Virus record (IMG/VR): IMGVR_UViG_3300025645_000414
Span: 1-25,293 of that record
Length of the DNA: 25,293 bases
Direction: 5' to 3' (one strand)
DNA from: a virus
The stretch's first letter is position 1; each line of letters opens with the position of its first letter. This document shows, in pieces, positions 3,908 to 20,045 of the stretch. The position numbers and the translations under genes are program-made. The notes beneath the pieces were generated by a model. That model did no database searches. It saw only the letters and a program-made list of their open reading frames with translations, and was not told the DNA's origin.

Positions 3908-5263
3908 TCAGCGTTTCCAATCAAGCTCTACGAGAGCGTTGTGCGACCCGTTTGATTTGCCGAACAAGGTGTAATTCTGCATCCTGTCTACCAAAGAAGG
4001 CCCATCAGGAACTTTTGCACCTGTAAAGAAACCGGGTGTATCAACCAATGCTAATGGTGCTGCAATCTTAGGTGATATCATACCCATAGCCACCATAGTG
4101 GTGGTTTGTGATGCTGCTGAGTATCTCTGCGACGGAGCTATCTTTGCAACCGCCTTTTCAGCCGCCGCTTTAACCTTTTCCTGTCGGCTCTTGGGCTTTG
4201 GAGGAGCTTGCGCCTCTCTAGTCTCTGCCGGGGGTTCTACCGAAGGCTCCGGTTCTGGTTCAGTCTCAGAGGGTCGAGGCTCTGGCTGCGCTTCTGCTGA
4301 CTGTCCCTCTGGTTCCGGCTCCCGTTCAGAAGACTGCTGCGGTTGCTCGGGTTCCGGTTCCGGCTCAGGTTCCGGCTCTCGTGCGCGAGGCTGTTCTACA
4401 GGGGGAGGCGCTATATCCTGCTCTATTTGAGCTTCAATAGTCGCCTCTGCCCGTGATTCCTGTTGCTGCTGTTCCATAGGAGGTGGCGGCAGATCAATTT
4501 GAATGGGCGCTATCTCTGGAGGGGGAGGTGGCGCAGATGGAGCTTGCGGCGCAACGGCAACAGCGATTGGGGCCGCTGCTGGCGGTGGCGGCAAGTCAAC
4601 TGGAGGAGGAGGCACGTTAATCTGAACCGGAGGCGCAGACGCTATTACATCGTTCTGCACAATCTGGTCTAAAATTTGCTGCTCTACTACCTGTTCATGC
4701 GTAAACGTAAGCGAAGGCTGCGAGAATTTAGGTCCGAAAAATCCAGAGTGAAACCCGGCATCCACGCCGAATAGCTCAAACTCCCCCGTAAGTATGCTGA
4801 AGCTGTTTTCTTGAACGGTATCCGTGAAATCAAATGTGCGAAGACCACTAAAATCTAATTCAACCTGACGCTCAAACTTCTCAACTACTGTATTTGTGAC
4901 ATCAAACAACGCTACCGTTAGGTTAAAAATATCGCGGCAATCGCCGCCCTGCGTGATGCTGGTACAAGTGGATAGCGTGGCGTTGCTAGGATGACTGTCC
5001 ACGGTAACCGCGCTGTTGAGGGTAAAGCCTCTGCGAACCTCGTCCTCGGTCAATGGAACGTCAAACGTGCTCGTATAAGTGCCGCCACCCGCCGTAGCGT
5101 TACCTGTGCAAAACTCCCCGGCAGAACAGCCTCTTGCAGAACCATCAGATGTCGTTGACCCACTCGTCGTAAACGCGGACATATTAGGAAGGACATTGGT
5201 CGTCGTTACAGTTTCCGCCAACGCAGAAGACGACATAAGCAGAAATGCAATCAGCCAACGCAT
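3908..5263 (-). CDS. Exported protein with long Pro-rich and Glu-Pro-rich linker (451 aa)
   Basis: The ATG at 5263 overlaps the upstream stop (TGATG) and has GGAGG 6 bases upstream, so it is preferred over the in-frame ATG 18 bases further out. It gives a classical Sec signal peptide, MRWLIAFLLMSSSALA, with likely cleavage before ETV. Residues about 17-195 are beta-rich with four Cys. Residues about 205-275 are poly-Pro blocks (VPPPPVDLPPPP). Residues about 285-355 contain repeated Glu-Pro. A Lys/Ala segment and a roughly 75-residue conserved-looking tail follow. The linker recalls the periplasm-spanning Pro/Glu-Pro region of TonB, but no TonB C-terminal domain is recognised. It is coupled to the 185-residue exported protein upstream. 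The role is unknown; acting across the host periplasm is inference. Confidence 0.85.
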   Translation of the reverse strand: MRWLIAFLLMSSSALAETVTTTNVLPNMSAFTTSGSTTSDGSARGCSAGEFCTGNATAGGGTYTSTFDVPLTEDEVRRGFTLNSAVTVDSHPSNATLSTCTSITQGGDCRDIFNLTVALFDVTNTVVEKFERQVELDFSGLRTFDFTDTVQENSFSILTGEFELFGVDAGFHSGFFGPKFSQPSLTFTHEQVVEQQILDQIVQNDVIASAPPVQINVPPPPVDLPPPPAAAPIAVAVAPQAPSAPPPPPEIAPIQIDLPPPPMEQQQQESRAEATIEAQIEQDIAPPPVEQPRAREPEPEPEPEPEQPQQSSEREPEPEGQSAEAQPEPRPSETEPEPEPSVEPPAETREAQAPPKPKSRQEKVKAAAEKAVAKIAPSQRYSAASQTTTMVAMGMISPKIAAPLALVDTPGFFTGAKVPDGPSLVDRMQNYTLFGKSNGSHNALVELDWKR

Positions 5264-5820
5264 CAATCGCCTCCGTACCATTCTTCTTGGTCAGGAAAAT
5301 TAACGTGCTCGGAATCTTGTTGAGGCTGCGAAGATGCCGTTTCCGCTTTTACCTGCAATCGCACAATAGAACCTTCCGGTGCCTGTTCTGGATTCTTGAC
5401 CCACTCCTGTTTCGCCGCGTCCCCAATCTTGCCCATAAACGGGCAGGGTGTCCCAGCCATCCAAAGACCGTCAAATACTCGAACCTCTTGGCAAAGAATG
5501 CTAATGCCCGCGACTTTCAGCCCCATACCAAATACTGACCGCGCCAGCTTTATTCTCTCGCAGTTTAAGTCACGAGTCGTTGTGCCACCGGAAACGCCAA
5601 AAAGACCAGTTTGCAGAGCACCGCTGGTTCCGACCTGACAGATGTCGTTGTTGTTAACGACTATAGAAGGACTAGACGCTGTAGGTGGTGTTTTATCAAC
5701 TACTGTTGAACTACTTACTGTGGCTGACGTTACTGTATCAGCCGCATAGGTTGGGAGACTGAACAGGAAATCCACAAAGACGACAACCAGTATAAAAGCT
5801 GCAATCAACCGGGCAGACAT
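5263..5820 (-). CDS. Exported Cys-containing conserved phage protein (185 aa)
   Basis: It starts with ATG at 5820, just after the TAG of the preceding gene. A signal peptide of about 26 residues (hydrophobic LIAAFILVVVFVDFLFSL, ending TYAA before DT) is followed by a Ser/Thr/Val-rich linker. A conserved-looking core at about residues 55-135 contains four Cys, with segments NNNDICQVGTSGALQTG, RDLNCERIKLARSVFGMG, CQEVRVFDGLW and AGTPCPFMGKIG. I recall similar Cys-patterned proteins in other marine phages, always without a known function. Four Cys in an exported protein suggest disulfides. It overlaps the start of the next exported protein by one base, so the two are probably made together. Confidence 0.85.
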   Translation of the reverse strand: MSARLIAAFILVVVFVDFLFSLPTYAADTVTSATVSSSTVVDKTPPTASSPSIVVNNNDICQVGTSGALQTGLFGVSGGTTTRDLNCERIKLARSVFGMGLKVAGISILCQEVRVFDGLWMAGTPCPFMGKIGDAAKQEWVKNPEQAPEGSIVRLQVKAETASSQPQQDSEHVNFPDQEEWYGGD

Positions 5821-12556: not shown

Positions 12557-12916
12557 CTAAGACACCGAAACTGTAACGCTTCCAACTTGCCCCGAAGCCT
12601 GTAGGCTTGTTTGTGTTGAAAAGCCGTAAAGAGGTTCCAAGCTATTCCTGTCTCCTACCGGGTTCCAGTTAGCCGAGGCATTAGAAGAGGAGTCAGTTCT
12701 ATTGTCGGGCCTCGCCCCAAGCAATGCTTGAGGGTCATCGACAGGATATCTGCCAAGAAAGTTTTGGGGATGGTCAGGGTCAAGCATGTCCTTACCTACC
12801 CTAAGCCCAGTCCGCTTTCCGTCTTGGACCTCAAAAACAAGGTCTTTCAGCTTGTACGTGAAGCCGCTCCTGTCACAAATCCCGAGGGCATATTTTCCTG
12901 CTGCAAAAGAAGACAT
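12557..12916 (-). CDS. Conserved phage protein (119 aa) with C-terminal GSVTVS motif
   Basis: The ATG at 12916 overlaps the upstream stop (TAATG). GGAGG lies 12 bases upstream, longer than usual, so coupling to the upstream gene is likely. The protein begins SFAAGKYALGICDRSGFTYK, includes DLVFEVQDGKRTGLRVGKDM, then DPDHPQNFLGRYPVDDPQAL. A flexible Asn/Ser-rich segment leads to the ending SGQVGSVTVSVS. That ending matches the repeat in the 10763-11179 protein and the end of the 481-789 protein. The two Cys-free halves show no known fold. It sits between two connector-like genes, so it is probably a minor structural protein. Confidence 0.8.
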   Translation of the reverse strand: MSSFAAGKYALGICDRSGFTYKLKDLVFEVQDGKRTGLRVGKDMLDPDHPQNFLGRYPVDDPQALLGARPDNRTDSSSNASANWNPVGDRNSLEPLYGFSTQTSLQASGQVGSVTVSVS

Positions 12917-13605
12917 TAGTAAGAATATCCTCCCGGTATTAACTGCACACCGGCTTTCACCCTATCCTCAGCCGCGCACAAGGAAAACTGCTCTTCATAG
13001 ACCTGTTTCAACAGCCCCACACGATCAAATGACTCTGGTCTTTTCATTGCTACGTGATACGCCAATCCAGATGTCAAAGCTGGCAACCAACGATCCGGGG
13101 CATCATAGGTATTCGCTCCAGCAGTACCCGTATCTTGAATTCTTTTAACTCTCAGGAACACAACCGTGTACGTTTCTGTATCATCAGGAACGGGCCATAG
13201 AGTGTATTGAGGAGATGTCGTTCTCTGTATGTAAATTTGTAGAGGCTTGCCCTGAGTGAGCTTATTCGGGATGTTCTGAAAGGTGGAGGGGCTTACCCTA
13301 ACAAGGCTTGTATCTGCCTGTGTGTTTGTATCGCCCGCATTTGTCCGAATGTGATGCTCAAGGAAATCAATGGTGCCAGCGGGAAACGGATAAGTGGATG
13401 TTCCAGCGGTGAGGGCTTGGGTCCCCTCCTCAATGGTCCACAGATTGAGTCCACGGTTTATCCACTCCAAAGACATAAGATCAAGACTACGACGAGCCGT
13501 CTTGAGATCGTATCCTCCACGCATCTCAAGACCGGCCCGTTCATAAGCCTCCTCGCAGATATCAATGATATCCAGAGTAAAATCTGATGTCCCGCTAGTC
13601 GCCAT
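12916..13605 (-). CDS. Connector / head-completion protein candidate (229 aa)
   Basis: The ATG at 13605 starts 4 bases after the stop of the Met-Lys repeat gene, with only a poor AAGGAAG-type site further upstream. The N-terminus is helical (LDIIDICEEAYERAGLEMRG, GYDLKTARRSLDLMSLEWIN, RGLNLWTIEEG). A beta-rich middle follows (ALTAGTSTYPFPAGTIDFLE, PQYTLWPVPDDTETYTVVFL), then helices to the end. A helical bundle followed by a beta-domain is the topology of P22 gp4-like and T7 gp11-like tail-adaptor proteins. I recall close relatives in marine phages under names such as tail-tube or head-completion protein. It is likely part of the portal-tail junction; which ring it forms is not resolved. Confidence 0.75.
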   Translation of the reverse strand: MATSGTSDFTLDIIDICEEAYERAGLEMRGGYDLKTARRSLDLMSLEWINRGLNLWTIEEGTQALTAGTSTYPFPAGTIDFLEHHIRTNAGDTNTQADTSLVRVSPSTFQNIPNKLTQGKPLQIYIQRTTSPQYTLWPVPDDTETYTVVFLRVKRIQDTGTAGANTYDAPDRWLPALTSGLAYHVAMKRPESFDRVGLLKQVYEEQFSLCAAEDRVKAGVQLIPGGYSY

Positions 13606-13609
13606 TTAG

Positions 13610-13750
13610 TTACTTCTTCTTCCTTGTCTTGCTGCCGCCGCGCATCATCATTTTCTTTTTAGTGCCACCGCGCATCATCATTTTTTTCTTGGTGCCACCG
13701 CGCATCATCATTTTCTTTTTACCGTTTCCGTTTTTACGACCCATTGCCAT
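13610..13750 (-). CDS. 46-residue Met/Lys-rich basic protein with three KKKMMMRGGT repeats
   Basis: The ATG at 13750 has AAGGAG 8 bases upstream and overlaps the end of the 180-residue gene by 17 bases. The stop is TAA at 13610-13612, 4 bases before the next start. The protein reads MAMGRKNGNG, then KKKMMMRGGT twice and KKKMMMRGGS once, then KTRKKK. It contains 11 Met and 14 Lys in 46 residues and no acidic residue. The clear ribosome-binding site and the fit between flanking genes argue that it is real despite its size. It is the last of five tandem basic-protein genes. A nucleic-acid or acidic-surface binding role is plausible from charge only. Confidence 0.8.
   Translation of the reverse strand: MAMGRKNGNGKKKMMMRGGTKKKMMMRGGTKKKMMMRGGSKTRKKK
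13631..13720 (-). repeat. Three tandem 30-base repeats encoding KKKMMMRGGT/S
   Basis: Units are 13631-13660, 13661-13690 and 13691-13720, exactly in frame and without spacers. The central part, encoding MMMR, is identical in all three on the plus strand (CGCATCATCAT). Differences are in the Lys codons, the Gly codons and the last residue (Thr, Thr, Ser in order of translation). Copy number could vary between relatives by slippage. Confidence 0.95.
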
Positions 13751-14276
13751 AACTTAATCTCCTTCTATCTAAGACCAGAGTTTCATAAAGATGATCTGCA
13801 AAATGATTATAATACCCAATCTCCTCAAGCGCTAGACTTGCTTTGTTTAATGTGCTCAAGGGCTGGATGAAGACCATCATGTAATCTTCGTCTAAATCAG
13901 ACTCCCAATCATTGTCCGTTAAAAAAGCCTCGCTCTCCTCTGACGGCGGAAAATCTGGGTGAAATAACATAAGATAGATGTCAGTGGAAAAGTTCTCTTT
14001 ATTCCATATCTGAACCCATCTATCCCAAAGATCGACCCTGCTCAGGTTAAAATTAACCCAAATAGCCATGTCAAAAGATTTTGGATCAAAATCTCTTATA
14101 GCGGCTTTTAGATCAACAGGACCTTCACCAACCCAGACATCGACTCGTTTACCTTTCCAAGCGCTCTCAGCGTAAGGGCAAGCCTTTAACCCAGACAGGT
14201 GAGGGTTTGGAAGATCAAGAACTTCACGAGACCAACTTCTCAAGTCTTCAAAGACGGGCTGATGCCTTGTGTTCAT
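13734..14276 (-). CDS. Acidic protein of unknown function (180 aa) within the basic-protein cassette
   Basis: The ATG at 14276 forms ATGA with the upstream stop. The protein starts MNTRHQPVFEDLRSWSREVL followed by DLPNPHLSGLKACPYAESAW, a pattern I recall from other marine phage genomes without function. The middle is Trp/Asp-rich (DMAIWVNFNLSRVDLWDRW) and the C-terminal half is acidic (SEESEAFLTDNDWESDLDED). There is no signal peptide, membrane span or enzyme motif that I can name. It is the only non-basic protein in its cluster, so it might neutralise or chaperone the flanking basic proteins; that is speculation. An A-rich slippery sequence just upstream could fuse it to the preceding basic protein. 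Confidence 0.82.
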   Translation of the reverse strand: MNTRHQPVFEDLRSWSREVLDLPNPHLSGLKACPYAESAWKGKRVDVWVGEGPVDLKAAIRDFDPKSFDMAIWVNFNLSRVDLWDRWVQIWNKENFSTDIYLMLFHPDFPPSEESEAFLTDNDWESDLDEDYMMVFIQPLSTLNKASLALEEIGYYNHFADHLYETLVLDRRRLSYGNGS

Positions 14277-14455
14277 TTCTTTTTTTTCTTTGTTGCCTTT
14301 TTGCGCTTGCTAAGTTTTTTAAGATCAGCGCCGGTAATTTTATTCCTCGGAGGAGCAACCTTAGCGAGTTTCTTTTGCTTTGGCGTGTACTTAGAGAACG
14401 GCATCTTCCTGTTACCTTTCATTTGGCTTCGCATCTGAGAACGAGAAACAGGCAT
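14273..14455 (-). CDS. Small Lys-rich basic protein (60 aa)
   Basis: The ATG at 14455 begins 2 bases after the previous stop. The sequence starts MPVSRSQMRSQMKGNRKMPF, includes TPKQKKLAKVAPPRNK and ends ATKKKKK. About a third of residues are Lys or Arg and only one is acidic. The 3' end is a run of A with an A-AAA-AAG heptamer (0-frame codons AAA-AAA-AAG) two codons before TGA, overlapping the next ATG. No domain is recognised. It probably acts with its neighbours as a DNA- or RNA-associated or internal-head basic protein; that is inference from composition and position. Confidence 0.78.
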   Translation of the reverse strand: MPVSRSQMRSQMKGNRKMPFSKYTPKQKKLAKVAPPRNKITGADLKKLSKRKKATKKKKK

Positions 14456-14457
14456 GA

Positions 14458-14709
14458 CTATCTGTGCTTTCTAGTTTTCTTAGCAATCTTTTTAGGCTGC
14501 TTCACGTACTGCTTGCCCTTTTTCATGCCTCGACGCTTTGCTGCTGAAGTCCTTCTGTACTCTTCAGGACTTAAAGATTTTATCGCTGAAGTCGGTAAAT
14601 ATCTTTCTCCGGTAGCCTTAGAGCCTTGAGTGGAAGGCTTACCAGACTTTGTCCTCCACTTCTGTTTAGTCCAACTACTAAGGCTCTTCTGAGACTTTTT
14701 CTTAGCCAT
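14458..14709 (-). CDS. Small basic protein, DUF5872-like (83 aa)
   Basis: The ATG at 14709 overlaps the upstream stop (TGATG). The sequence starts MAKKKSQKSLSSWTKQKWRT, then KSGKPSTQGSKATGERYLPT, and ends KQPKKIAKKTRKHR. The SW/KW-x-KQKWRTKSGKPS block with GERYLP is a pattern I recall from a widespread small phage and bacterial family called DUF5872. The name is from memory. Its function is unknown. It is very basic throughout, and its Trp residues and conserved block suggest a folded element rather than a mere tail. Confidence 0.82.
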   Translation of the reverse strand: MAKKKSQKSLSSWTKQKWRTKSGKPSTQGSKATGERYLPTSAIKSLSPEEYRRTSAAKRRGMKKGKQYVKQPKKIAKKTRKHR

Positions 14710-14915
14710 CAGTCTCGGTACCCACCACCAGCTTTCTTATAGCGTTGCGCCAACATTTGAGCTTTGCGGGCAGACCACTGACCCGGCTTGCCGCCCTTGC
14801 CACCGGCTTTGATAGAATTAAAAAGACGCTTTCGCATAGCTGGCTTCGTGTAGTTACCAGCCTCGTTAACGCGGCTTTTCGTCTTCTTTTTTGCTCGGGT
14901 TTTTTTAACTGCCAT
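14709..14915 (-). CDS. Small basic conserved phage protein (68 aa)
   Basis: It starts with ATG at 14915, 6 bases after the preceding stop, with only a weak GGAAG-type site. A Lys-rich leader (MAVKKTRAKKKTKSR) precedes a more conserved-looking core, VNEAGNYTKPAMRKRLFNSI, then KAGGKGGKPGQWSARKAQML and KKAGGGYRD. I recall this core (AGNYTKPxxRKRxF...GQWSARKAQMLAxxYKxxGGGY) in many phages and some bacteria, with no known function. The Gly-Gln-Trp-Ser-Ala-Arg-Lys motif is the feature to search for. It is third of the five basic genes. Confidence 0.85.
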   Translation of the reverse strand: MAVKKTRAKKKTKSRVNEAGNYTKPAMRKRLFNSIKAGGKGGKPGQWSARKAQMLAQRYKKAGGGYRD

Positions 14916-14921
14916 GTCTAA

Positions 14922-15227
14922 TCAACACTTCCAGCGCTTGCGGGCTTGACGCAAACGACTATTAGGGTTTTTGGCTGCTTTAGGAAACTTCTTCATTTGC
15001 CCAGCGGAACGAGCGCAAAAAGATTTGCGTCTCTTCGCGGCTTTGCTGCCCGGTTTGACCTTTCCTGTGACAGCAGTCTTTAGCTTGCTGCCGGGGTTCT
15101 GCCGACGATATTTAGCAACGCCCTTCTTGGTCATCCCGGCACCAGACTTCGTGGGCCGCTTATGACCACCCTTGATGGTCATGCCCTTCATTCCAGTACT
15201 GCGCCGTTTCTTTGGTTTAGAAGCCAT
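14922..15227 (-). CDS. Basic protein with C-terminal RKSFCARSAGQM motif (101 aa)
   Basis: The ATG at 15227 has AGGGG 8 bases upstream. The first 45 residues are Lys/Gly-rich and disordered-looking (MASKPKKRRSTGMKGMTIKG). The remainder includes GVAKYRRQNPGSKLKTAVTG, KVKPGSKAAKRRKSFCARSA and NSRLRQARKRWKC. The RKSFCARxxGQM ... NSRLxxARxRWxC pattern is one I recall from a phage family of unknown function. Two Cys, one at the very C-terminus, could form a disulfide or metal site. It is strongly basic with no acidic residue. It leads the basic cassette immediately after the head-surface protein genes, consistent with an internal-head or DNA-associated protein. Confidence 0.83.
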   Translation of the reverse strand: MASKPKKRRSTGMKGMTIKGGHKRPTKSGAGMTKKGVAKYRRQNPGSKLKTAVTGKVKPGSKAAKRRKSFCARSAGQMKKFPKAAKNPNSRLRQARKRWKC

Positions 15228-16402: not shown

Positions 16403-16453
16403 AACAGTTCCTCCTTAGAACCAACGCCGAAGCGCCATCATGGACAAAATAAA

Positions 16454-16479
16454 GGGGGGAGAGATCATTCTCTCCCCCC
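16454..16479 (-). terminator. Rho-independent terminator after the major capsid gene
   Basis: On the minus strand GGGGGGAGAGA and TCTCTCCCCCC form an 11-bp perfect stem around a 4-base loop (ATGA), followed by TTTATTTTG. It begins 5 bases after the capsid stop codon. The strong stem plus T-rich tail make this the best intrinsic terminator in the window. Since similar structural genes continue downstream on the same strand with no obvious promoter, it probably acts as a partial terminator that sets capsid protein in excess. Confidence 0.82.
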
Positions 16480-16484
16480 CACGA

Positions 16485-17393
16485 TTAGGATGCTCCGGGA
16501 GAACCGAAGATACCCAAGGGATCGGAAACACCGAAAGAATAACGCTCACGCGCTTTGTAGCGCACGTTACCCGTCTGGAAGTCTCCGTCCATACCAGTCG
16601 TCATCGGAGCACGTTCAAAGTGCTTCATTCCGTTCGGCACATCAGTGCAGAGGAACCAAGCATTGGTGTCCGTGAGATAGTGGTTAACAGAATAACCCTC
16701 AGGGATCGTTCCGTTGTTGCGGATCGCGTTGACATCATTGTCCGCAGTACCAACCCGCTGATCTGTTTCCAGAATGCGAGTAGCAACGAACATGAGGTCA
16801 GGCGGCACAACCAGCTTACGCGGACGAGCCGCAATAAGCAGACCACGTTGGTCTGTCCACTTAGCAATCTGAATAACAGAAGCCTCAAGGGAGGTCTCGT
16901 TAAGGTCAGAAGCTGTTGCTGGACGGTTAGAGTTGGTGCCTCCACTCACAAGCGGGTGAGCAGTGCTGAACAACGTAACTCCATCACCAGACTGGTAGGT
17001 GTTGAATCCGTCATTCAAAGGCGCGGCAGCCTTTACCTGCTTGGTGTAAGCCATTGCCCGTGCGAGAGCTTTGGTATAACGAGCAGAAAGTGAGTCATAG
17101 AGGTTATCCTCAATGGCTTCTTCCGTGATCGAAAAGCCCATCGCAATGGTTTCATGGTTATACCTAGCCGTAAACGACTCCTGTGCGACATCATACGAGA
17201 TCGAAGCACCCTCGTTTTTAACAGGGGCAGCGTCGAAGCCGGAAAGTGCGACCTCTTCCTCGAAGCTACGATCCGAAGACTCGGTGTCATAGACTTCAGT
17301 ATGCTCGTCCTCGTATTTTGCGTACTCCAGACCGAAAAGAGCGTTAAGCCCCGGCAGGAGTTCTTTAAGCATTTGTGCTCTTGAAATAGCCAT
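16485..17393 (-). CDS. Major capsid protein, Mu gpT-like (302 aa)
   Basis: This is the shell-forming head subunit. The ATG at 17393 has AGGA 10 bases upstream. The family pattern is clear: an N-terminal helix (RAQMLKELLPGLNALFGLEY), then SFTARYNHETIAMGFSITEE and AIEDNLYDSLSARYTKALAR, a loop with LFSTAHPLVSGG, a beta-segment RPRKLVVPPDLMFVATRIL, and the C-terminal KARERYSFGVSDPLGIFGSP. This matches the Mu-like gpT/HK97-fold major head subunit set. The length of about 300 is typical. It lies downstream of scaffold and two small head-region genes and is closed by a strong terminator-like hairpin, all consistent with the most abundant virion protein. No separate protease is seen, so it may mature without cleavage. 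Confidence 0.93.
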   Translation of the reverse strand: MAISRAQMLKELLPGLNALFGLEYAKYEDEHTEVYDTESSDRSFEEEVALSGFDAAPVKNEGASISYDVAQESFTARYNHETIAMGFSITEEAIEDNLYDSLSARYTKALARAMAYTKQVKAAAPLNDGFNTYQSGDGVTLFSTAHPLVSGGTNSNRPATASDLNETSLEASVIQIAKWTDQRGLLIAARPRKLVVPPDLMFVATRILETDQRVGTADNDVNAIRNNGTIPEGYSVNHYLTDTNAWFLCTDVPNGMKHFERAPMTTGMDGDFQTGNVRYKARERYSFGVSDPLGIFGSPGAS

Positions 17394-18523: not shown

Positions 18524-19475
18524 TACTCATCTCCTTCATAAGCTGTACCGCGTACTGTTGAGGCGATATACCCAATTTCTTAGCGAGAGAAACTTGGGTG
18601 CTAGTCAACTCCACTTTGCGCGGCGATGCACCTGACCCCCTTTTAGTCGGCGCGACCACCGGAGTTCTTCGAGAAGTCGGAGTTTCACTAGCAGGAGTAC
18701 TGCCTTCCCCGAAGAATTCCGAAAACTGCCCCTGTAGGGCAGAATCTATCTGTTCATAATAGCCCGGATTGTTACGAGGGTCTACCCCCTGTTTAACGAG
18801 CTTCTCATGCAGCCCAACAGCAAAACCAGTCATCTCCTCGTGACCGGGCTGTTGAAACCATGCATTTCTCTTTAACCAATCAACTGCCATAGGATCAGGA
18901 GGTTGAATCTGCTGTGCTGGCTGTGGCTGTTGTTGAGCCTCAGACGGGACAGGCTGCTGAAAAGCATCTGCTTCAGAAGAATAGCGAACCCTCTCTGCAT
19001 GAAGTCTGCTCAGTTCAGACTGGGCGGTGACAACGGCATCCGTGTCCCCCGTCTCATAAGCCTCTCGATATTGCCGTTTAGCACCTTCAATCTCACTGTC
19101 GGTCTTGGCCGCGACCTGATCATACAGGAGACGCCTTAACTCAGAGTGTTGATTTTTTAACGACTCATTTTCGCTTTGAATTTGTTTGGCGTAGTTAACG
19201 GCTTCACTGTTTTCTCTCTGGAAGCGTTCTTTTTCTCGCCGCTCTTCATTGTACTCATAGCGCAACTTTCCAATACGCTTTTGAATACGTTGACTAAGTT
19301 GACCCTCTTCCAAATCACCTTCTTCAGATTCTTCAGAGCCATCCGCCCTGACTGGACGATTCCGATCCACTTCAGGAGTGTCGTCTACTACTTCGACCTC
19401 AACGGCATCTGGGTCGATATCTAAATCAACCTCTAACTGCTCGACTTGGTCTTCCGCTAAATTTTGATCGCTCAT
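18516..19475 (-). CDS. Capsid scaffolding protein (319 aa)
   Basis: It directs procapsid assembly and is absent from mature heads in typical phages. The ATG at 19475 overlaps the co-chaperonin stop (ATGA). The first 58 residues are very acidic (DLDIDPDAVEVEVVDDTPEV, EESEEGDLEEGQ). Residues about 58-175 form a long charged coiled coil (RIQKRIGKLRYEYNEERREK, NYAKQIQSENESLKNQ). A Gln/Pro-rich linker follows at about 175-200. The C-terminus is basic and helical (SPRKVELTSTQVSLAKKLGI), as in scaffolds that bind the capsid subunit through a basic C-terminal helix. Position before the capsid gene fits. Assignment rests on architecture and order, not a named family. Confidence 0.8.
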   Translation of the reverse strand: MSDQNLAEDQVEQLEVDLDIDPDAVEVEVVDDTPEVDRNRPVRADGSEESEEGDLEEGQLSQRIQKRIGKLRYEYNEERREKERFQRENSEAVNYAKQIQSENESLKNQHSELRRLLYDQVAAKTDSEIEGAKRQYREAYETGDTDAVVTAQSELSRLHAERVRYSSEADAFQQPVPSEAQQQPQPAQQIQPPDPMAVDWLKRNAWFQQPGHEEMTGFAVGLHEKLVKQGVDPRNNPGYYEQIDSALQGQFSEFFGEGSTPASETPTSRRTPVVAPTKRGSGASPRKVELTSTQVSLAKKLGISPQQYAVQLMKEMSNG

Positions 19476-19846
19476 ACCTTTTTGATCCCCCTTGGGTCTT
19501 CAACAACAGCCTCAACGGAGTCATCATTTATAACTCTGAACTCTTGCCCATGAATTTCTATTCGTGTTCCTGAGTAAGAGCGCATGAGAATAAAGTCACC
19601 CTCCTTGCACCAAGGGCCGTTCGGAAACCTTTCGGTATCTTTATAAGCGTCAGGCCCTATTTTCAAAACCATCCCGACCATGCTTGCTGCCTCTTCACGC
19701 TTTCGCGTATCTTCAGGCAACAAAACACCGCCTTCGGTTTTCTGTTCTTTTTCTGGTATCGCAATTAAAATTCTGTAGCCAACAGGCTCTGGCAAAGCCT
19801 TTGCTTTTCGGGCCTCGTCCAGTTCTACAACTTTTTCTTTACTCAT
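19472..19846 (-). CDS. GroES-like co-chaperonin (124 aa)
   Basis: Phage co-chaperonins such as T4 gp31 replace host GroES as the lid of GroEL so that the capsid protein can fold. The ATG at 19846 (MSKEKVVELDEAR) overlaps the upstream stop and has AAGGAG 6 bases upstream; a longer in-frame start at 19906 is not supported. Residues about 20-31 (EPVGYRILIAIPEK) match the first GroES strand. Residues 36-48 (KTEGGVLLPEDTR) match the mobile loop, with VLL in place of the GroEL-contacting hydrophobic tripeptide. WCKEGDFILMRSYSGTRIEI and HGQEFRVINDDSVEAVV match the C-terminal strands. At 124 residues it is longer than bacterial GroES (about 97) because of an N-terminal extension and a loop around residues 66-78. 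It precedes scaffold directly. Confidence 0.87.
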   Translation of the reverse strand: MSKEKVVELDEARKAKALPEPVGYRILIAIPEKEQKTEGGVLLPEDTRKREEAASMVGMVLKIGPDAYKDTERFPNGPWCKEGDFILMRSYSGTRIEIHGQEFRVINDDSVEAVVEDPRGIKKV

Positions 19847-20045
19847 CTTCTTCTCCTTTACGCAAGGCCTCAAACAGATCAAGAAGCTCTCTCTCTGCCA
19901 AGGCAAGTCCCTCTATTACGCCCACAATCTTGTGGTACTCTTCAAAGCTACGCGCACCACCGGTAGCCAAGAAGTCGGCCTTCTCATTCATCGAAGACCT
20001 AAGGTTTTTTTGAAAAACCTCATAAACATTTTCAATGATCGCCAA
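19839..20045 (-). CDS. Small helical protein with TTG start (68 aa)
   Basis: The start is TTG at 20045: an in-frame TGA lies four codons upstream, GAGG sits 7 bases before the TTG, and the next Met is residue 19. The protein is predicted helical throughout (ENVYEVFQKNLRSSMNEKAD, SFEEYHKIVGVIEGLALAER, ELLDLFEALRKGEEDE) with an acidic end. No family is recognised, though I recall small proteins of this type between portal and scaffold genes. Its ribosome-binding site is buried in a hairpin that also contains the portal stop codon, which suggests it is translated only by coupling to portal translation. Confidence 0.72.
   Translation of the reverse strand: MAIIENVYEVFQKNLRSSMNEKADFLATGGARSFEEYHKIVGVIEGLALAERELLDLFEALRKGEEDE

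Follow-up and report, generated by a model that had tools for sequence, protein, structure and literature searches.

A cassette of small basic proteins with a conserved gene pair: candidate DNA-associated accessory proteins of ocean phages

Between its capsid and adaptor genes, a virus represented by IMG/VR record IMGVR_UViG_3300025645_000414 encodes five small, strongly basic proteins and one acidic protein. Here, we report that the conserved core of this cassette is a pair of genes, B68 and B83, often with a member of the B101 family nearby. We tentatively read the cassette products (probability about 0.45) as late, exchangeable, low-copy, nucleic-acid-associated proteins, carried in the virion, that protect or organize the genome, with B68 and B83 as the rejoined halves of one unit.

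Results

The window (the whole stretch of 25,293 nucleotides that was analyzed) carries its main genes on the minus strand: terminase, portal, GroES-like, capsid, cassette, adaptor, and tail genes. The cassette and its flanks are as follows.

16485-17393, minus strand: major capsid protein, one flank of the slot (phrog_371, 3e-24; PF25209)
16453-16480, minus strand: terminator-like hairpin between the capsid gene and the remaining late genes, upstream of the cassette
14922-15227, minus strand: B101, 101 aa, net charge +35, DUF6321 (PF19846), ATG start
14709-14915, minus strand: B68, 68 aa, net charge +19, PHROG 17747, ATG start
14458-14709, minus strand: B83, 83 aa, net charge +25, PHROG 14910, ATG start
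14273-14455, minus strand: B60, 60 aa, net charge +22, local basic protein, ATG start
13734-14276, minus strand: A180, 180 aa, acidic (net charge -14, pI 4.6), PHROG 28122
13610-13750, minus strand: B46, 46 aa, net charge +19, three copies of a 30-bp repeat, ATG start
12916-13605, minus strand: adaptor/connector protein, the other flank of the slot (SU10_adaptor PF24175, 53.1 bits)

A sequence-only reading of the window had picked out five basic open reading frames (ORFs) interrupted by an acidic one, and all of them were recovered with the same positions and lengths. Lysine and arginine make up 31 to 41% of the five basic proteins, and 11 other window proteins that were checked have net charges of 0 to -60. 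The genes are tightly packed, with overlaps of 1 nt (B68/B83), 4 nt (B60/A180), and 17 nt (A180/B46). Elsewhere, the window holds a gene for a GroES-like co-chaperonin between the portal and capsid genes (19472-19906; phrog_3188, 8e-18) and, at 3908-5281, one for a 457-aa protein that includes an extended region rich in proline and glutamate.

In comparison with the relative L006, synonymous sites in the cassette are saturated (pS, 0.76 to 0.94) and dN is 0.135 for B101, 0.097 for B68, 0.194 for B83, and 0.199 for B60, comparable to the adaptor gene (0.187); because dN is low while synonymous sites are saturated, B101, B68, B83, and B60 are constrained proteins. The conserved-looking cores remarked on from the single sequence recur in the family alignments: GQWSARKAQ.LA..Y...GGGY is nearly invariant in the B68 family (42 rows), W....W.TKSGK is conserved in the B83 family (57 rows), and SFCAR...W.C is conserved in the B101 family (44 rows), where R66, S69, R73, and W99 are invariant and C71 and C101 nearly so. 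AlphaFold2 predicted B83 (mean pLDDT, 92; pTM, 0.75) and B101 (mean pLDDT, 81; pTM, 0.62) to be compact small domains. The accompanying claim that these proteins are not random low-complexity tails agrees with the predicted folds of B83 and B101; B46 is a simple repeat. Profile searches of PDB sequences with B101, B83, and B68 returned no match at an E value of ≤1, and a Foldseek search with B83 found nothing in the PDB with an E value under 3.9. The best VIA-align hits, 2i9f_B for B83 (Z, 3.1; 45 aligned; rmsd, 3.6) and 2rkh for B101 (Z, 3.4; 52 aligned; rmsd, 4.4; one chain compared), were not meaningful and were rejected as homologues of solved structure. In BFVD, B83 matched unnamed proteins and B101 matched DUF6321 proteins.

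At least one strongly basic ORF (net charge of at least +10 and at least 20% K+R; simple greedy ORF calling) lies in the slot between the capsid and adaptor genes in 52 of the 54 complete loci, those in which both genes of this type are present, and at least three do in 42; the 54 count two contigs twice (L088/L010 and L101/L013). B68 served as the seed for eight of these loci, and the cassette itself was the query that retrieved L003 and L005; without the B68-seeded loci, the counts are 44/46 and 34/46. Of the 380 ORFs in the slot, 189 are basic; the stretch from portal to capsid has 3 basic ORFs among 186, and the stretch that follows the adaptor has 20 among 325. The slots of L076 and CRP-901 (L172) have none. 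Basic ORFs are concentrated in this slot, whose content is shuffled. Among the other basic families that recur near the B101-B68-B83 trio are one found in 66 loci and another found in 42 loci (members at L019:2980-3312 and L136:9699-9992, one of them a weak match to DUF5754, E value of 0.033), and tiny basic HNH-like proteins adjoin the trio in 10 loci (for instance, L107:1958-2212; HNH_3, E value of 2e-4, below the cut-off).

The five basic genes do not form the single set that had been proposed, since B60 and B46 are local and the conserved unit is B68 plus B83, with the B101 family often near. B60 matches at only six places in the loci, three of which are the window, L163 (the window's own slice), and the near-identical L086, and it matched nothing in phage records; neither B60 nor B46 has a significant PHROGs family. 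The repeat protein B46 has homologues only in the window, L163, and L086. At its position, L006 has a 42-aa ORF with MAMG and MMRGG in common and with different repeats; B46 is fast evolving. A180 has homologues in HMO-2011 (gp66) and in further loci that carry B68 and B83, and one relative, in L147, matches DUF1415 below the cut-off; A180 might partner the basic proteins.

B68 and B83 match PHROG 17747 (E value of 6e-34) and PHROG 14910 (E value of 1.5e-34) strongly and over nearly their full length, but PHROGs lists the two families apart and without function, and their pairing, fusion, and bacterial homologues are unstated there. In all 77 viral loci seeded with B68 (L086 to L162, best matches only), B83 is on the same strand no more than 3 kb away; in 56 of the 77, many of which are short contigs, neither a capsid nor an adaptor gene of this type was seen. 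B68 and B83 each match 19 isolate phage records; both are present in 18 of the 20 records that match either, a set in which one phage is counted twice and most phages have other capsid genes. The carriers are HMO-2011, Roseobacter CRP phages, several pelagiphages, Methylophilales phages, and two Synechococcus phages. The sequence-only reading depended on synteny in relatives, and L006 keeps the whole gene order. Placement between head and connector genes holds for this phage type, but in most other phages the genes lie beside the terminase gene or come last among the late genes: MEP402 has the order B101-B68-B83 directly before terminase, in HTVC034P the B68-B83 pair closes the late genes after a peptidase gene, in HTVC033P the unit is near an amidase gene, and in HTVC010P-type, HMO-2011-type, and other phages the cassette genes are away from head genes. 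On a B68+B83 tree of the 77 loci, capsid type must change 10 times, versus a shuffled mean of 25, and the well-supported branches force only 1 change; repeated exchange between phage types is suggested by this tree.

Fused forms also exist. The viral contig L130 encodes both domains in a single ORF in the order B68-B83. When bacterial and archaeal genomes were scanned with B83, 13 places turned up; each lies in a metagenome or single-cell assembly, and each also carries B68. In seven, B68 and B83 are separate genes, L182 having the capsid, portal, and adaptor of this type and the other six looking phage-like by gene content (read by eye); the remaining six, from Pelagibacteraceae single cells, hold one 138-aa ORF in the order B83-B68. 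B68 was found in 18 of 197 Pelagibacteraceae genomes, in frames of 139 to 149 aa in 14 and in short frames in 4; the eight long frames opened were all fused, and the four short ones were all adjacent pairs. Elsewhere, both are rare (B68 in 8/385 of a class-wide sample; B83 in 8/398 of a phylum-wide sample), and most are fused as B68-B83. Fused chromosomal proteins also occur in other Alphaproteobacteria, and both domain orders are seen overall.

Among 10 fused bacterial proteins, DUF5872 (PF19197; cut-off, 27.5 bits) scored 27.7 and 27.6 bits, barely above the cut-off, in two and 26.8, 25.3, and 19.8 bits, below the cut-off, in three, with no listing for the remaining five; the matches span both halves. 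The window B68 and B83 gave no DUF5872 match at an E value of ≤1, and we therefore describe them as homologues of segments of DUF5872-matching proteins rather than as family members. The bacterial matches contain both B68 and B83, whereas the window has them as separate genes without a Rho_N/SAP-like tail and more basic than the high-GC forms. A Rho_N-like stretch was detected in five of six high-GC fused proteins (E values of 4e-5 to 0.07, all below the cut-off), and B68-B83 proteins of 166 to 189 aa (L216, L217, L218, L220, and L221, from Alphaproteobacteria or other Pseudomonadota) have a subthreshold Rho_N/SAP-like stretch at the C terminus. Charge per residue averages +0.25 in phage cores, against 0.02 to 0.16 in seven high-GC bacterial cores, 0.19 to 0.29 in four Pelagibacteraceae cores, and 0.12 to 0.22 in the other four bacterial cores (L207, L208, L209, and L214). 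In fused bacterial proteins, B68 corresponds by homology to the N-terminal part and B83 to the second part, and from this homology we infer that the phage B68 and B83 are the separated halves of the bacterial fused unit.

The chromosomal B83-B68 gene of Pelagibacteraceae (L193:7992-8408 and L188:7992-8408) has as neighbors in L193 genes for amine oxidoreductase, DUF1365, CMAS, DUF3833, SDR, and TspO (Pfam), and the ORF layout of L188 is that of L193. Outside Pelagibacteraceae, no conserved neighborhood of fused genes was seen by eye in nine 10-kb regions. By analogy, the Pelagibacteraceae group resembles a singlet-oxygen response set, that of Rhodobacter sphaeroides (RSP1091-1087), a likeness that, beyond one common family, we presume; a photo-oxidative role of the B83-B68 protein would be an analogy drawn from its gene neighbors. 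The common family is DUF1365, to which UfaO of RSP1091-1087 belongs (PMC7380195).

Nearly every capsid gene of this type (91 of 93) has a hairpin of -12 kcal/mol or better within the next 75 nt; for six other genes taken as controls, the tally is 2 to 12 among 61 to 114 flanks. The hairpin may separate capsid expression from that of the downstream genes. Its strength and its place between the capsid gene and the cassette suggest a low copy number of the cassette proteins, and the sequence in this way argues against their being made in bulk.

B101 is a DUF6321 member (48.9 bits; curated cut-off, 28.5; E value of 1e-12), to judge from a score above the cut-off and from its sequence, which retains the SFCAR motif and the W.C positions at the C terminus. 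In contrast to the stand-alone B101 gene in a basic cassette, DUF6321 in the T4-like cyanophages opened is the C-terminal part of proteins of 165 to 517 aa, encoded near or between terminase genes; in P-SCSP1d, DUF6321 directly follows the capsid gene. No DUF6321 match was found in one Pelagibacteraceae genome, but the control genomes gave none either, so this search is uninformative.

Virion data bear on this family. In Table 3 of PMC10665884, the DUF6321-tailed ORF137 of S-CREM2, whose coordinates there are those of gp137, was detected in virions by mass spectrometry (4 unique peptides, 4.1% coverage), and the authors state that regulatory proteins detected this way could be co-purified. ORF137 has a net charge of -20 overall and +16 in its last 90 aa. 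S-SCSM1_29, a DUF6321 protein, carries the deposited label "virion protein" and is probably among the 45 virion proteins reported for S-SCSM1 in PMC9602691. The DUF6321 gene product S-SZBM1_192 is absent from the 30-protein virion list of S-SZBM1 in the excerpt of PMC9146016, the text covered of the P-SCSP1u cryo-EM paper names no such protein, and the virion literature covered yielded no report of B101, B68, or B83 as small proteins in virions. Fully tryptic peptides of 7 to 30 aa are few (B101, one; B60, one; B46, none; B68, three; B83, four), so absence of the small proteins from virion lists means little. Syn5 gp58, considered as a possible DUF6321 protein because it is a structural protein encoded just before terminase, like DUF6321 in S-TIP28, was rejected because the profile matched nowhere in Syn5 or P-SSP7.

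Open PMC papers yielded no paper on DUF6321 and, for DUF5872, only a table row for an algal virus; their titles and abstracts held no description of the unit (pairing, split and fused forms, and bacterial copy). The cassette had been called undescribed as a unit, and within these searches this stands for the unit as such but not for its parts, as DUF6321 is in Pfam and B68 and B83 are PHROGs without function.

Discussion

In the reading that we prefer, B68 and B83, made from adjacent genes, probably reunite as a two-subunit complex, and B101 (DUF6321) would be a second domain, one that larger phages carry as the C-terminal tail of bigger proteins. The cassette proteins would most likely bind DNA during or after packaging, would enter the head in modest copy number, and would then pass into the cell with the genome and protect or organize it there; for the B68-B83 complex, charge and the Rho_N/SAP-like stretch on some bacterial homologues suggest DNA or RNA binding. 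Counting against this reading are the absence of S-SZBM1_192 from its virion list, the negative overall charge and low coverage of ORF137 and the co-purification warning, the distance from head genes in many other phages, and the hairpin, which suggests low expression. The internal or ejected head proteins of T7, P22, and T4 are the systems to compare: the likeness lies in late genes, charge suited to DNA, and virion evidence for one relative, but the cassette proteins match no named internal-protein family in PHROGs and are putative virion components. Sequence comparison likewise gave nothing to back the histone-like label that had been suggested: the five basic proteins matched no HU, histone, or protamine family in Pfam or PHROGs, nor did the four that were scanned in NCBIfam.

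The same late proteins might instead act in the infected cell, binding RNA, ribosomes, or host DNA or protecting replicated phage DNA, as exchangeable accessory genes. We give this possibility serious weight, though short of an even chance: the genes move from terminase in MEP402 to the late end in HTVC034P and the amidase gene in HTVC033P, slot content is shuffled, and the bacterial homologue in a stress-like operon is a cell protein; yet a DUF6321-tailed protein was detected in S-CREM2 virions, and the slot is far richer in basic ORFs than neighboring stretches. That the proteins aid head assembly, as basic partners of acidic scaffold, capsid, or cement proteins in closure or completion with no part for DNA, would suit genes that stay beside capsid genes in this phage type and have acidic neighboring proteins, but it seems to us improbable, because the basic ORFs are dispensable for this capsid type, L076 and CRP-901 having complete slots without them, and the B68-B83 pair also occurs in phages where this capsid/adaptor type was unseen.

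The repeats of B46 and the rare conservation of B60 might suggest low-complexity or spurious ORFs, basic through base composition, but constraint, invariant cores, the confident B83 fold, and the 77/77 pairing make this the least credible account of the cassette, and it is excluded for B101, B68, and B83. A bolder extension, which we regard as a long shot, is a nucleic-acid-protecting module of two parts, shared by bacteria, which would keep it whole, and phages, which would split it. SAR11-type hosts would retain the fused copy in a photo-oxidative-stress-like operon, while the particle-borne, more basic, and swappable phage version would shield DNA from light and oxidative damage, either in surface water or as it enters the cell.

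The families described here are widespread in ocean phages and have no assigned function. Through their pairing, their fusions, and their bacterial homologues, several genes so far labeled "hypothetical" become a single unit that can be tested and has a counterpart in cells. Should the proteins be particle-borne, as in our preferred reading, they would represent a widespread class of virion DNA-associated proteins that tends to be missed by trypsin-based proteomics. The cassette thus offers candidate DNA-associated accessory proteins of phages.
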